A DNA stretch of 64,000 nt from NCBI RefSeq assembly GCF_025655475.1, contig NZ_JAHTIK010000001.1, forward strand, positions 4,456,451 through 4,520,450. Reading direction: 5' to 3'. Source of the DNA: Kitasatospora sp. DSM 101779. Lineage in GTDB: Bacteria; Actinomycetota; Actinomycetes; Streptomycetales; Streptomycetaceae. This document shows positions 55,192 to 60,766 of the stretch, in pieces (position 1 is the stretch's first letter; each line of letters begins with the position of its first letter). The notes beneath the pieces were generated by a model, which was not told the origin of the DNA, ran no database searches, and worked only from the letters and a program-made list of their open reading frames with translations. Position numbers and translations under genes: made by a program.

Positions 55192-55383
55192 GCGAATGCG
55201 ACGAGCGGATCCGAGGCCCTCCCGGTACGCCACGGTGGTGCCCGGGCCACCGCCGACCCCGCCCGATCGTCGGGCAGGTCGGCGGCCCCGCACCGGCCGT
55301 CGCACGCTTTCCGCGCGCGCCGTCCGGCCCGGACCACTCGGACACCGCCCGGCAGCACCGGGCGCCGCCCTGGGGGAGACCGC

Positions 55384-56493
55384 ATGTCGACACCCACCAC
55401 CGATTCCCGCCCGACGGGCCGCCCCGCGCCCACCGGCCCGCTGATCGTCACCGCGGACGACGCCCTCGCCGACCACCTCGCCCGGATCTGCGCCGCGGCC
55501 GGTGCCGAACCGTACCTGGCCCGTGCCGAACCACCGCGCGCACTCTGGGAGGACGCGCCACTCGTGCTGGTCGGCGACGACCTCGCCGAGTCGTGCGCCG
55601 GGCTGCCGCGCCGGTCCGGCGTGCTGCTGCTCGGGCTCGACCTCGACGACGGCAGCGTCTGGGTGCGGGCCGTGCGCCTCGGCGCCGAGCACGTGCTGTT
55701 CCTGCCGGACGCGCAGGCGTGGCTGCTGGACCGGATCGCCGATGCGGCGGAGGGCGTCGGCCCGCCCGCGCTCACCGTCGGCGTGCTCGGCGGCCGCGGC
55801 GGCGCCGGCGCCTCCACACTGGCCTGCGCGCTCGCCGTGACCGCGGCGCGCAGCGGGCACCGCACCATGCTGGTCGACGCCGACCCGCTCGGTGGAGGAC
55901 TCGACGTCCTGCTCGGCGGCGAGACCGCCGAGGGGCTCCGCTGGCCCGATCTCGCCGGCTCCCGCGGGCGGATCGGCGGAGCGGAACTCGCCGGCGCACT
56001 GCCGGAACTGCAAGGTCTCAGCGCGCTCTCCTGGGACCGCAGCGACTGCCTGGCCATCCCGCCCGAGGCGATGCGCAGCGTGCTCGCCGCGGCCAGGCGC
56101 CGCGGCGGCCTGGTGGTGGTCGACCTGCCCCGCCACCTCGATCCGGCCGCCGCCCAGGCGCTCGAGCAGATCGACACCGGTCTGCTCGTGGTCCCCGCGG
56201 AACTGCGCGCCCTCGCCGCCTCGGACCGCGTCGCCGCCGCCGCCCGGATGCGGCTGACCGACCTCCGCGCGGTGGTCCGCGTCCCCGGCCCGGTCGGCCT
56301 TCCCTCCGCCGAGATCGCCCGCAACCTGAGGCTCGCCTTCGCCGGAGAGCTTCCGTCGGAGCCCGGGCTCGGCCTCGACGTCGAGCGCGGACTGCCGCCC
56401 GGCCTGCGTGAGCGAGGCCCGCTCGCCCGCTTCTGCAACAGCTTCCTGAGCGAGGTCATGCCGCCGGTGGCGGCCGCAGGCGGTGCATCATGA
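55384..56493 (+). CDS. TadZ/CpaE-like septum-site-determining ATPase
   Basis: A 369-residue protein with a receiver-like N-terminal domain (about 18-115) and a MinD/ParA-type ATPase domain. The P-loop is degenerate but recognisable, VLGGRGGAGASTLACALA near residue 140, with Ala and Ser replacing Lys-Thr positions, then LVDADPLGGGLDVLL and VVDLPRHLDP. TadZ proteins localise the pilus machine at a cell pole. First gene of the tad operon; the ATG follows gggggaga, and its stop overlaps the TadA start by four bases. Confidence 0.92.
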   Translation: MSTPTTDSRPTGRPAPTGPLIVTADDALADHLARICAAAGAEPYLARAEPPRALWEDAPLVLVGDDLAESCAGLPRRSGVLLLGLDLDDGSVWVRAVRLGAEHVLFLPDAQAWLLDRIADAAEGVGPPALTVGVLGGRGGAGASTLACALAVTAARSGHRTMLVDADPLGGGLDVLLGGETAEGLRWPDLAGSRGRIGGAELAGALPELQGLSALSWDRSDCLAIPPEAMRSVLAAARRRGGLVVVDLPRHLDPAAAQALEQIDTGLLVVPAELRALAASDRVAAAARMRLTDLRAVVRVPGPVGLPSAEIARNLRLAFAGELPSEPGLGLDVERGLPPGLRERGPLARFCNSFLSEVMPPVAAAGGAS

Positions 56494-57872
56494 CCGACCG
56501 TCTCCCGCGCCGCCGCATGTCCGGCGGTCCTTGGGCCCAGCCCGCGCAGCACCGCCGCCGCCTCGGCGCCGGCCTGCGACTCGGCAGTGGCGGCTCCCTG
56601 CGGACTGCGGCGGCCCTCCGCTCCGACGGACAGCACGGCGAACGCACCACTGCGGTCGGCAAGCAGATCCAGGACGACTCCACGCACCGCCGCGGCACCC
56701 TGCTCGACGCCGTCCGCCTCCATCTGGCCGAGACCGGCGCGCTGCCCACCACCGGGTCCGTCGCCGCCGCGCTGCGTGCCAACCGGCCGCCCCTGGGCGG
56801 CGGGGACGTGCTCGACACCGTACGGGCCATCCAGGCCGAGCTGGTCGGCGCCGGGCCGCTCCACGAGCTGCTCGACCGCCCCGATGTGACCGATGTGCTC
56901 GTCAACGGCCCTGACGAGGTGTGGATCGACTGCGGAAGCGGCCTGCAACCGGCACCGGAGGTCCGATTCCCGGACCGCGAGGCCGTCCGACGGCTGGCCC
57001 ACCGACTGGCGACCGCCGCGGGCCGCCGCCTCGACGACGCGATGCCCTGGGTGGATGCCCGACTCCCGGACGGCACCCGGCTGCACGCCGTCCTGCCGCC
57101 CATCGCCGCCGGCGGCTGCACCCACATCTCCCTGCGGATCTGCCGGGCACGCCCGTTCACCCTGGACGAGCTCGTCGTCGGCGGCACACTGACCGGGCCC
57201 GGAGCCGACCTGCTCCGCGGAGTGCTCCGTGCCAGGCTCTCGCTGCTCATCAGCGGCGGCACGGGCTCCGGCAAGACGACTCTGCTGGCAGCCCTGCTCG
57301 GACTCGTCGGGGCCGACGAGCGGATCGTCGTGGTCGAGGACTCGGCCGAACTCCGCCCCGACCACACGCACGTGGTGCGCCTGCAGAGCCGTCCGCCGAA
57401 CCAGGAGGGCCTCGGTGAGCTTACCCTGCGCGACCTCGTCCGGCAGGCCCTGAGGATGCGTCCCGACCGGCTCGTCGTCGGCGAGGTCCGCGGCGCAGAG
57501 GTCGTCGACCTGCTCGCCGCGCTCAACACCGGTCACGACGGCGGATTCGGCACCGTCCACGCCAATGCGGCGGCCGACGTGCCGGCCCGCCTGGAAGCGC
57601 TCGGGTCGCTCGCCGGCCTCGACCGGCTCTCGCTCCACAGCCAGCTCCGGGCCGCCGTCGACCTGGTCGTCCACCTCGTCCGCGATCCCGCCACCGGGCA
57701 GCGGCGGGTGGCCGAACTCCACACCGTGGAGGGCGATGCCCGCGGCCTCACGACCACGCGACCCGCCCTGCTCTTCCGGCCCGGTGGCCGCTGCGAGACC
57801 GGACCGGGCTGGGCCTCGCTCCAGCACATCTGCGCCGAACGCGGCGTCACCCTTGCGGGGAGGCCGGAATGA
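56490..57872 (+). CDS. TadA/CpaF-type secretion ATPase
   Basis: A 460-residue type II/IV secretion ATPase that powers pilus assembly. After about 70 basic, low-complexity residues come the N-terminal domain (VTDVLVNGPDEVWID), Walker A ISGGTGSGKTTLLAALLG, Walker B-like ERIVVVEDSAEL, MRPDRLVVGEVRGAE and the His box GHDGGFGTVHANAA. The first 70 residues lack homology and the real start may be internal. Overlaps both neighbours by four bases. Confidence 0.94.
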   Translation: MTDRLPRRRMSGGPWAQPAQHRRRLGAGLRLGSGGSLRTAAALRSDGQHGERTTAVGKQIQDDSTHRRGTLLDAVRLHLAETGALPTTGSVAAALRANRPPLGGGDVLDTVRAIQAELVGAGPLHELLDRPDVTDVLVNGPDEVWIDCGSGLQPAPEVRFPDREAVRRLAHRLATAAGRRLDDAMPWVDARLPDGTRLHAVLPPIAAGGCTHISLRICRARPFTLDELVVGGTLTGPGADLLRGVLRARLSLLISGGTGSGKTTLLAALLGLVGADERIVVVEDSAELRPDHTHVVRLQSRPPNQEGLGELTLRDLVRQALRMRPDRLVVGEVRGAEVVDLLAALNTGHDGGFGTVHANAAADVPARLEALGSLAGLDRLSLHSQLRAAVDLVVHLVRDPATGQRRVAELHTVEGDARGLTTTRPALLFRPGGRCETGPGWASLQHICAERGVTLAGRPE

Positions 57873-58006
57873 CGCTCCGCCAACTGGAGGCGCTCTGGGG
57901 CCTGGCGCTCTGCGGGGTGGCCGGACTGGCGTGGTGGCTGCTGGAGTCGGCCGCCGCCTGGCCCAAGGACGACCGGACGGCGTCCGACCGTCGGAGGCGG
58001 CCGTGA
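57869..58006 (+). CDS. Small one-span membrane protein within the tad operon
   Basis: A 45-residue ORF, MTLRQLEALWGLALCGVAGL then AWWLLESAAAW and a charged Arg-rich end. It has one membrane segment (about residues 8-30). Its ATG overlaps the tadA stop (ATGA) and its stop overlaps the GTG of the tadB-like gene (GTGA), so it fills the space between them with no untranslated base. The architecture argues for a real coupled gene. No family recognised. Confidence 0.65.
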   Translation: MTLRQLEALWGLALCGVAGLAWWLLESAAAWPKDDRTASDRRRRP

Positions 58007-59043
58007 GCGGGCTCTCGACGGGCACGGCAGCGCTGGGCCGCCCGCCGGCCGTGCTGCCGGGCGGCGCGGTACGACGTCCATCCGGTGGCGGGCGGGCCAG
58101 GAGGCTGCTCGACGCCCAGGGTGAGGAACGTGCCCGTCGGAGAGGCACGGCCCTCCATGAGCTCGTCCGGCGTGCGGCAGCGAGCGGACGCCGGCCCCGG
58201 TGGCTGGTCCCCGAGCTGGTCCTGTTGCCCATCGGGATCGCTGCCGGCCATGCCACCCACTCTCCGGTCCCGTTCACGGCGGCGGCCGCCGGCATCCTGC
58301 CGCTGCGGCGACTGCGTGCCCGACGCCGGACGGTAGAGGAGGCGCGGCGTCGCTCGGCGGCCGTGATCGAGCTGTGTACCTGTCTGGTCGGCGAGCTCCG
58401 CAGCGGTGCCACCGCCGAGTACGCCCTGCAGACCGTCATCGGCCGCGGGCGAGCACTCCGGGACGACCTCGGCGCCGAACCGTCCGCCCGACTCGCGGCG
58501 GCCCGCTACGGCGCAGACGTCCCGACCGCCCTCCGTCTGGTCGCCGAACTGCCGGGCGGCTGCGGGGCCGCAGCCGTCGCCGCCTGCTGGCAGGTGAGCG
58601 CCGAGAGCGGCACCGGGCTGCTGGCGGGCCTCGATCAGCTCGTCGACGCCCTGCGTGCCGAACGCGCCCTCGCCGAGGAGGTGGCCGGTGAGCTGGCCGG
58701 CTCCCGCGCGACGGTCGCGCTGCTTGCCGTGCTCCCCGTTTTCGGTCTCCTGCTCGGTACGGCCCTCGGTGCTCACCCACTGCCGACGCTGCTCCACACA
58801 CCGGCTGGCCTGGTCTGCCTCGCCGCCGGTGCCGCACTGGAGACCGCAGGCCTGCTGTGGACGGCCCGGATCGTCAGGTCCGCCGAGGACGCTCCCCCGG
58901 TCGACCCGGCCCGGACGGCGGGCGAGGACGGCAGGCCGAGAACGGGGCGGCCGGCCTGCGGGATCTCCCGCCGCCGTGCGGACCGCCTCGGAGGCCCGGA
59001 ACAGCTGCGCCCCCGTACCGCGAGGGGTGGGGTGGCCGGGTGA
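58003..59043 (+). CDS. TadB-like pilus assembly membrane protein
   Basis: A 346-residue T2SSF-domain protein. Membrane segments are near residues 75-105 and 235-290; between them is the cytoplasmic domain with VIELCTCLVGELRSGATAEYALQ and LPGGCGAAAVAACWQVSAESGTGL, typical of TadB. It forms the inner-membrane platform for the TadA ATPase. The C-terminal 50 residues are a disordered Arg/Pro-rich tail. Overlaps the small ORF before it and the TadC gene after it by four bases each. Confidence 0.9.
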   Translation: MSGLSTGTAALGRPPAVLPGGAVRRPSGGGRARRLLDAQGEERARRRGTALHELVRRAAASGRRPRWLVPELVLLPIGIAAGHATHSPVPFTAAAAGILPLRRLRARRRTVEEARRRSAAVIELCTCLVGELRSGATAEYALQTVIGRGRALRDDLGAEPSARLAAARYGADVPTALRLVAELPGGCGAAAVAACWQVSAESGTGLLAGLDQLVDALRAERALAEEVAGELAGSRATVALLAVLPVFGLLLGTALGAHPLPTLLHTPAGLVCLAAGAALETAGLLWTARIVRSAEDAPPVDPARTAGEDGRPRTGRPACGISRRRADRLGGPEQLRPRTARGGVAG

Positions 59044-59840
59044 CCGCCCTGACTGTCGCACTGTCAGCCCTCCTCGGTGTCCTGGCAGTCCTGCCCGGGC
59101 CGGTGCGGCGGCGCGAGCTCAGACGGCGCCTCCGCGGCTGTCTGCCCGACCTCCGGCCCGCCTGCCCCCGGCGACACGCTCGCCGCCCCCGTCGCCCCCG
59201 TCGGACGCGACGGCCGCTGCGCAGCCTGCCTGCCCGAGCCTGGTGCGCGCCACTGGCGGTCGGCCTCGCCACCGCTGCTGCCACCGGCGGGGCGGTGGGC
59301 CTGGTGGCCGGGGCAGTGGCGGCCGCGGCCGCCTACCGCTGGCTGCCCCGGCCCCTGTCGGCCGCCGCACGGCGCGCAGTGGCCGAGGAGGAGCGCCTGC
59401 TGCGCCAAGTGCCCCTCACCGCAGAGCTGCTGGCCGCCTGTCTCGGCTCGGCCTCCGCGCCAGGCCGGGCGGCCGCTGCGGTGGCCGCCGGCGTGGACTC
59501 CCCGATGCGTGACCGGCTGACGGCGGCTGCCGCCCAGCTCGCGCTGGGCGCCCCGCCGGAGGTCTGCTGGGAGCAACTCGGCTCTTCCAGCCCTGTGCTG
59601 GCGCCGCTGGCACGCTGTCTGATCAGGACCAGCCGCAGTGGCACGCCGCCGATGGCAGCGCTGAGCAGCCTCGCCCAGACACAGCGGGCGGCGGCAGCCC
59701 GGGCCGCCCACGCCAGGGTCCGGCGCGCGGGTGTGCTCGCCACCGCCCCACTCGGGCTCTGCTTCCTCCCCGCCTTCGTCCTGATCGGTGTTGCGCCCGT
59801 CGTCATGGGCCTCGCCACGCTCTACGCCCACCGGATCTGA
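59040..59840 (+). CDS. TadC-like pilus assembly membrane protein
   Basis: A 266-residue T2SSF-domain protein, partner of TadB. Membrane segments lie near residues 3-18, 62-90 and 240-262. The cytoplasmic domain includes LLRQVPLTAELLAACLGSAS and ARCLIRTSRSGTPPMAALSSLA. Residues 20-60 are extremely Arg-rich. The GTG start is within the tadB stop (GTGA). Confidence 0.88.
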   Translation: MTALTVALSALLGVLAVLPGPVRRRELRRRLRGCLPDLRPACPRRHARRPRRPRRTRRPLRSLPARAWCAPLAVGLATAAATGGAVGLVAGAVAAAAAYRWLPRPLSAAARRAVAEEERLLRQVPLTAELLAACLGSASAPGRAAAAVAAGVDSPMRDRLTAAAAQLALGAPPEVCWEQLGSSSPVLAPLARCLIRTSRSGTPPMAALSSLAQTQRAAAARAAHARVRRAGVLATAPLGLCFLPAFVLIGVAPVVMGLATLYAHRI

Positions 59841-59901: not shown

Positions 59902-60288
59902 ATGTTCCAGCCCACCGTCCGTCTCACCGACCTCCCGTCCCCGACCACCGACACCACCGTGGCGGCCCCCGACCCCGCTGCCCCGGCGGCGGCCCTCGTC
60001 CCCGGCCCCGTACCGACCTCCGTCGCTCCGCCGGTCGCCTTCCGGGTACGCCGCCGACTCGGGCTCCACCGCATGGCCGTGGTCCGTGCCCGTCTCGCCC
60101 GACGTCTCGCCCGGCGGATCCGCGGGGCAACGATCGGCCCGCCGGACGCCGGCATGACGACGGCGGAATACGCCATCGGCACGGTGGCGGCATGCGCCTT
60201 CGCCGCGATCCTCTACCGCGTGGTGACGAGCGGGACGGTCTCCGGGGCGCTCGGGGAACTGCTCGACAGGGCCCTCCATGCGGTCTGA
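59902..60288 (+). CDS. DUF4244 Flp-pilin-like protein
   Basis: A 128-residue protein whose C-terminal 45 residues are a type IV pilin-like segment: DAGMTTAEYAIGTVAACAFAAILY. Cleavage after the Gly would leave Glu at position 5 and Tyr at 6, the Flp prepilin signature, followed by a hydrophobic helix. The long N-terminal leader (about 84 residues, Pro/Arg-rich) is unusual for Flp pilins. Starts seven bases after AAGGAG. It is the likely structural subunit of the pilus; no prepilin peptidase gene is in the window. Confidence 0.9.
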   Translation: MFQPTVRLTDLPSPTTDTTVAAPDPAAPAAALVPGPVPTSVAPPVAFRVRRRLGLHRMAVVRARLARRLARRIRGATIGPPDAGMTTAEYAIGTVAACAFAAILYRVVTSGTVSGALGELLDRALHAV

Positions 60289-60766
60289 CCGCCGTCCACC
60301 AGACCCACGGCGTCCACCAGACCCACGGCGTCCGGGAGACCCACGGCATCCGGGTCGGCGGCGGCCGATCGGAGGCGGCTGGAACGGCAGGCCGTACGAC
60401 GCGGGGACGGCCACCGCGGAGACGGCGGTGGCGATGCCGGCCATGGTGCTGCTCGCGGCCATGCTGATCTGGGGCGTCATCGCAGCCGCAGGCCAGATCC
60501 GTTGCGTGGACGCCGCCAGGATCGCGGCCCGGGCCGCAGCACGCGGAGACACGGACGCGGTGGCGGCGGCTCGCGCGGCCGCCCCGCCCGGTGCATCCGT
60601 CGAGATCGCCCAGGACGACGCCACTGTGCGGGTCACGGTCGAGGCCCCCTTCCCGGCACCCGGCCGGATCGGCGCGGCATTGTCGGTCCGGCTGGGAGCC
60701 TCAGCTGTCGCGGCCCGCGAGGACGCCCCGAGCGGGGCGGAGGGCGGCTCACCATGGCCGCCCTGA
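60278..60766 (+). CDS. TadE-like pseudopilin
   Basis: A 162-residue protein. After an Arg/Pro-rich leader (residues 1-35, with the hexapeptide PPDPRR repeated) comes the TadE signature GTATAETAVAMPAMVLLAAML, one membrane segment, and an outside domain. TadE-like proteins are minor pilins or assembly factors. The ATG lies inside the previous gene, 11 bases before its stop; no other start is in frame upstream of the signature. Confidence 0.85.
   Translation: MRSDRRPPDPRRPPDPRRPGDPRHPGRRRPIGGGWNGRPYDAGTATAETAVAMPAMVLLAAMLIWGVIAAAGQIRCVDAARIAARAAARGDTDAVAAARAAAPPGASVEIAQDDATVRVTVEAPFPAPGRIGAALSVRLGASAVAAREDAPSGAEGGSPWPP
60294..60347. repeat. Three 18-base direct repeats in the tadE leader
   Basis: gtccaccagacccacggc occurs at 60294 and 60312 exactly, and at 60330 with two changes. 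Being a multiple of three it encodes the repeated PPDPRR-type hexapeptide before the membrane segment. Confidence 0.92.

Follow-up and report, generated by a model that had tools for sequence, protein, structure and literature searches.

What occupies the space between the motor ATPase gene tadA and the platform gene tadB in the tad operon of Kitasatospora sp. DSM 101779, and does it add a subunit to the pilus? In the window, by which we mean the whole stretch of 64,000 nucleotides that was analysed, the operon runs in the order ssd, tadA, micro-ORF, tadB, tadC, DUF4244 and tadE (Table 1). The initial annotation had a small ORF filling the space between tadA and tadB exactly, and this placement is confirmed, as the start of the micro-gene overlaps the tadA stop in the sequence ATGA (57869-57872) and its own stop overlaps the GTG start of tadB in the sequence GTGA (58003-58006). 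The encoded protein of 45 aa, MTLRQLEALWGLALCGVAGLAWWLLESAAAWPKDDRTASDRRRRP, matched no family in Pfam or NCBIfam; C-terminal to its single helix a basic tail can be read from the sequence. We consider it likely that this micro-protein is the N-terminal membrane helix of TadB (TM1) made as a separate polypeptide, that it goes back to a one-time duplication and that here it supplies TM1 in trans.

The platforms of type 4 filaments transmit the movement of the motor to the pilins, and in Tad systems the platform is formed by TadB and TadC, which have been modelled bridging subunits of the TadA/CpaF hexamer (PMC11300603, PMC10191384). The TadB of the window has one T2SSF domain (PF00482 at 26.0 bits, just over the cut-off of 25.2); its best fold matches were EpsF, OutF, TcpE and PilC domains at probabilities of 0.97-1.00 and E values of only 0.05-0.75, and a sequence search of the PDB with TadB gave chance matches only. 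As an observation on the neighbouring gene, two Kitasatospora genomes (L190 of G010 and L189 of G017) have tadA broken at nearly the same codon, around residue 352 of the window TadA, with 6.4 and 9.2 kb separating its two parts. The insert in G010 encodes two or more phage-type integrases (PF00589) in tandem and resembles a recombinase-in-trio element.

Table 1. Coordinates of the tad operon and of the micro-gene within the window.
Feature	Position	Strand	Evidence
ssd/tadZ-like gene, upstream of tadA	55378..56493	+	TIGR03815, E 9e-104
tadA, motor ATPase, putative start	56490..57872	+	TIGR03819 (E 1e-143), PF00437
Shine-Dalgarno-like site of micro-gene, GGAGG (in GGGGAGG 57857-57863)	57859..57863	+	5-nt spacer, read from sequence
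Micro-gene, 45-aa one-helix protein, probable detached TadB TM1	57869..58006	+	ORF, helix match, dN/dS
Shine-Dalgarno-like site of tadB, GGAGG inside micro-gene	57993..57997	+	5-nt spacer, read from sequence
tadB, platform protein of 346 aa lacking TM1 at its N-terminus	58003..59043	+	PF00482; N-terminus not membrane-like; AlphaFold
tadC, second platform protein, GTGA start overlap	59040..59840	+	PF00482 (scan from 59025); start inferred from ORF listing
DUF4244 small pilin-like gene	59902..60288	+	PF14029; start inferred
tadE-like minor pilin	60278..60766	+	NF041390, E 1.6e-27

The tadA-tadB junctions were collected from 123 genomes and 121 of them were classified: 67 from the same genus (Kitasatospora being taken in the GTDB sense), 35 from other genera of the family and 19 from more distant actinomycetes, L052 and L187 being left unclassified because their sequence ends too soon. 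Among named organisms, those closest to the window are Kitasatospora and Streptomyces sp. NRRL B-24484. At exactly -4 of the tadA stop there is a separate ORF with a membrane helix in 54 of the 67 same-genus loci, tadB itself with a membrane-helix N-terminus in 12, and in one, L024 (G011), an ORF from which the helix is absent. In 32/35 of the other Streptomycetaceae loci and 16/19 of the more distant ones, all outside the genus, tadB begins at -4, usually with a hydrophobic N-terminus, and the 6 leftover loci had no membrane-helix ORF at -4; most of the named actinobacteria examined, from Nocardioides to Cellulomonas, have the same tadB start at -4. As tadB begins at -4 in other lineages, the position belongs to tadB. 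The proposal that the product is an accessory subunit of actinobacterial pili generally is thereby rejected: a small ORF at the same position was looked for in other actinobacterial tad operons and found neither outside Kitasatospora nor in a sister clade within it, and what stands there is the start of tadB, with TadB's own TM1 as the helix.

A tree of the locus, computed from TadA and the core of TadB without its N-terminal region (support given as bootstrap/SH-aLRT), resolves a fused Kitasatospora clade of 12 loci (100/98) and a micro-ORF clade (100/95; 54 rows in the tree, L024 among them), with all outgroups on either rooting side being fused. The separate one-helix ORF is present in 54/55 classified loci of the micro-ORF clade, where tadB starts further downstream, and the window belongs to a subclade of L001, L002, L032 and L111 (100/99). 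On this tree the distribution is accounted for by one gain plus one loss, showing a single origin of the micro-gene. GC-rich DNA yields many open frames, and a chance ORF, or a sequencing error that split tadB in the assembly, might be suspected; with the same arrangement in 54 genomes of one clade, and with a frame-shifted reading of the window DNA still placing no TM1 in the frame of TadB, this is hardly credible. In what follows, type II denotes the window's half of the micro-ORF clade and type III the other half.

The micro-ORF evolves as coding sequence and is probably translated. Among the 54 homologues the GC content at codon positions 1/2/3 is 0.73/0.57/0.89, and the pooled dN/dS over 16 close pairs is 0.52 (95% CI 0.41-0.65), compared with 0.89 and 1.44 for the same DNA in shifted frames; the constraint is weaker than that on tadA (0.21) and on the tadB core (0.20). 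A Shine-Dalgarno scan, with a match of at least 4 bases at 31/54 micro starts against a background of ~22%, is only suggestive. The small one-span protein of the initial annotation is thus real and, with its presence in 54/67 same-genus loci and its dN/dS, conserved and probably translated. Such a short ORF could also act merely as a coupling leader that carries ribosomes from tadA to tadB and whose product has no function, as would fit the position of the tadB start between -25 and +30 nt from the micro stop in 44/53 loci (L036 and L128 were left out of the spacing statistics for their unreliable TadB frames) and the case of L024, which keeps the bridging ORF without the helix. Nevertheless, 54/55 loci conserve the helix together with its residues, the dN/dS of 0.52 stands against neutral-like values in the other frames and the loss of TM1 from TadB would be left unexplained, so that we regard a functionless leader as quite improbable.

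The overlap of stop and start raises another possibility, a programmed frameshift by which the micro-ORF and tadB would be read as one protein and TM1 would not be truly detached, a shift for which the GGAGG inside the end of the micro-ORF could serve as a stimulator too. However, relative to the micro-ORF tadB is in frame 0 in 5 loci, in +1 in 20 and in +2 in 28, so no single shift serves the clade, and a Shine-Dalgarno sequence with 5-nt spacing fits re-initiation. As tadB starts near the micro stop in all three frames, independent coupled starts fit the data and frameshifting does not, and we reject the frameshift fusion as very improbable. The micro-ORF ends differ among loci in other respects as well. 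In L005, L013, L048, L113, L009 and L047 the open frame of the micro-ORF, lacking an early stop, extends over 186-416 codons and enters or traverses tadB out of frame; in L015 (G013) its tail consists of tandem five-residue units (QGLPKQGLPKQGLPKQGLPGQGLR) immediately before tadB.

The relation of the micro-protein to TadB was scored with a position matrix from 12 fused TadB N-termini, anchored at Met and ungapped, against a null of block shuffles. Type II micro helices matched the fused TM1 at p<0.025 in 26/28 cases (window p 0.0015), the exceptions L036 and L112 failing because their longer N-termini put them out of register, and the residues R4, L14, C15, W22 and L25 are common to the two sets. 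With the helix core alone the window gave p 0.005 and nine representatives together gave z 11.7, a value reached in 0/5000 shuffles; among 364 other hydrophobic segments from the window at most one scores as high. While helices of ~18 residues give a limited homology signal, origin from TadB TM1 is nonetheless well supported by these comparisons. Type III micro helices resemble those of type II (22/26 at p<0.05) and match the fused TM1 weakly. This weak match, and the fact that the TadB N-terminus is also hydrophobic in most clade members, where the micro-protein is an addition, would be expected of an independent accessory subunit of separate (e.g. de novo) origin, recruited to the Tad platform in Kitasatospora and resembling TM1 only in that both are N-terminal helices. 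We consider such an origin unlikely, since the in-register match between type II micro helices and the fused TM1 goes beyond what composition explains, the micro start is exactly the ancestral tadB start and the TadB of the window subclade is without TM1 just where the micro-protein is present.

The TadB of the window lacks the N-terminal TM1 present in its relatives, as judged by membrane score and by AlphaFold. The TadB N-termini of the four window-subclade genomes are not membrane-like (scores of 7 to 13 vs -3.5 to 1.5 for fused TM1), and upstream of their tadB no in-frame stretch was found that could supply a helix. AlphaFold models residues 1-29 of the window TadB as a low-confidence coil with no helix, followed by a linker helix and a membrane hairpin; the TM1-bearing TadB of L064 starts with a helix at residues 2-31, predicted with moderate confidence. 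With TadB TM1 lost in the window subclade, the micro-protein is the only TM1 remaining there. The reverse case is L024, which has lost the micro helix and kept the TM1 of TadB, its 4-nt overlaps to tadA and tadB being intact, and no genome lacking both helices was found among those reliably read. As most TadBs of the clade keep a hydrophobic N-terminus, replacement in trans is argued for the window subclade only; the N-termini of middling hydrophobicity in L038, L114, L005, L013, L048 and L113 may be on the way to TM1 loss. TM1 is retained in the same register by type III TadBs, where RRSRLVLAG often comes next, and by the TadB of L003. The presence of TM1 twice in type III loci favours duplication over simple splitting, and with these TadBs still carrying an in-register TM1 a fission without duplication is the less likely course.

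Based on our data we propose that one Kitasatospora clade inherited from its ancestor a duplicated 5' end of tadB, that the first copy, retaining the coupled start at the tadA stop, became the one-helix micro-gene and tadB gained a new start downstream, and that in the window subclade tadB then lost its own TM1. Coupled initiation would make the micro-protein just ahead of TadB; it would insert N-out/C-in like TM1, leaving the basic tail on the cytoplasmic side, and pack on the membrane helices of TadB at the TM1 site to complete the platform through which TadA is coupled to the movement of pilins, and pilus assembly may well require it. We argue for binding to TadB because the two are one chain in relatives. 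The undescribed accessory subunit of the initial annotation accordingly stands in one part, in that the protein very likely belongs with the platform, but not in the other, as it copies, and here replaces, a part of TadB. It is also conceivable, if rather doubtful, that after the duplication, in the large sister subclade whose TadB has TM1, the micro-protein took on a separate role as an additional platform subunit (e.g. acting on TadC or in pilus retraction), while serving as TM1 in trans in the window subclade; if true, one micro-gene would be caught at both outcomes of duplication.

The closest parallel is subunit IIa of the B-type (ba3) oxidase, a protein of 41 residues that constitutes the N-terminal helix lacking in subunit II (PMC3128077). 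The likeness is one of mechanism and not of membership: each is a separately encoded single helix of about that size, easily missed in annotation, that corresponds to the N-terminal TM helix missing from its partner, and the micro-protein, a small one-helix protein matching a helix absent from the TadB beside it, thus has the features of a detached helix. Unlike IIa, which was shown by mass spectrometry and belongs to an unrelated protein and complex, the micro-protein is a predicted product, and many of its relatives retain both copies of the helix. The platform family itself has been split before, since TadB and TadC arose by gene fission from a two-domain GspF-type platform (PMC6668835); that event also left separately encoded pieces, but it is ancient and separates two T2SSF domains, whereas here a single N-terminal helix was detached in one genus, probably by duplication. 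The fused TadBs of the sister Kitasatospora clade and of other Streptomycetaceae share with the micro-gene the gene position, the 4-nt overlap with tadA and the register of the helix, and differ in having TM1 and the T2SSF domain in one polypeptide. In the literature searched, which excludes most subscription journals, queries on Tad/Flp pili of Kitasatospora or Streptomyces and on detached TadB helices gave no earlier description of the arrangement.

The finding is therefore more specific than the initial proposal and concerns one genus, in which a helix of a known subunit has become detached. It would represent the birth of a one-helix micro-protein whose source is the N-terminal part of an adjacent membrane protein and not non-coding DNA, with the fused, two-copy and split states all extant in one genus, and an annotation that omits the small ORF here would present an incomplete TadB. 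With TadB indicated as the partner by the fused relatives, experiments with the helix in cis or in trans can address what TM1 does in the Tad/GspF platform, which is poorly understood.
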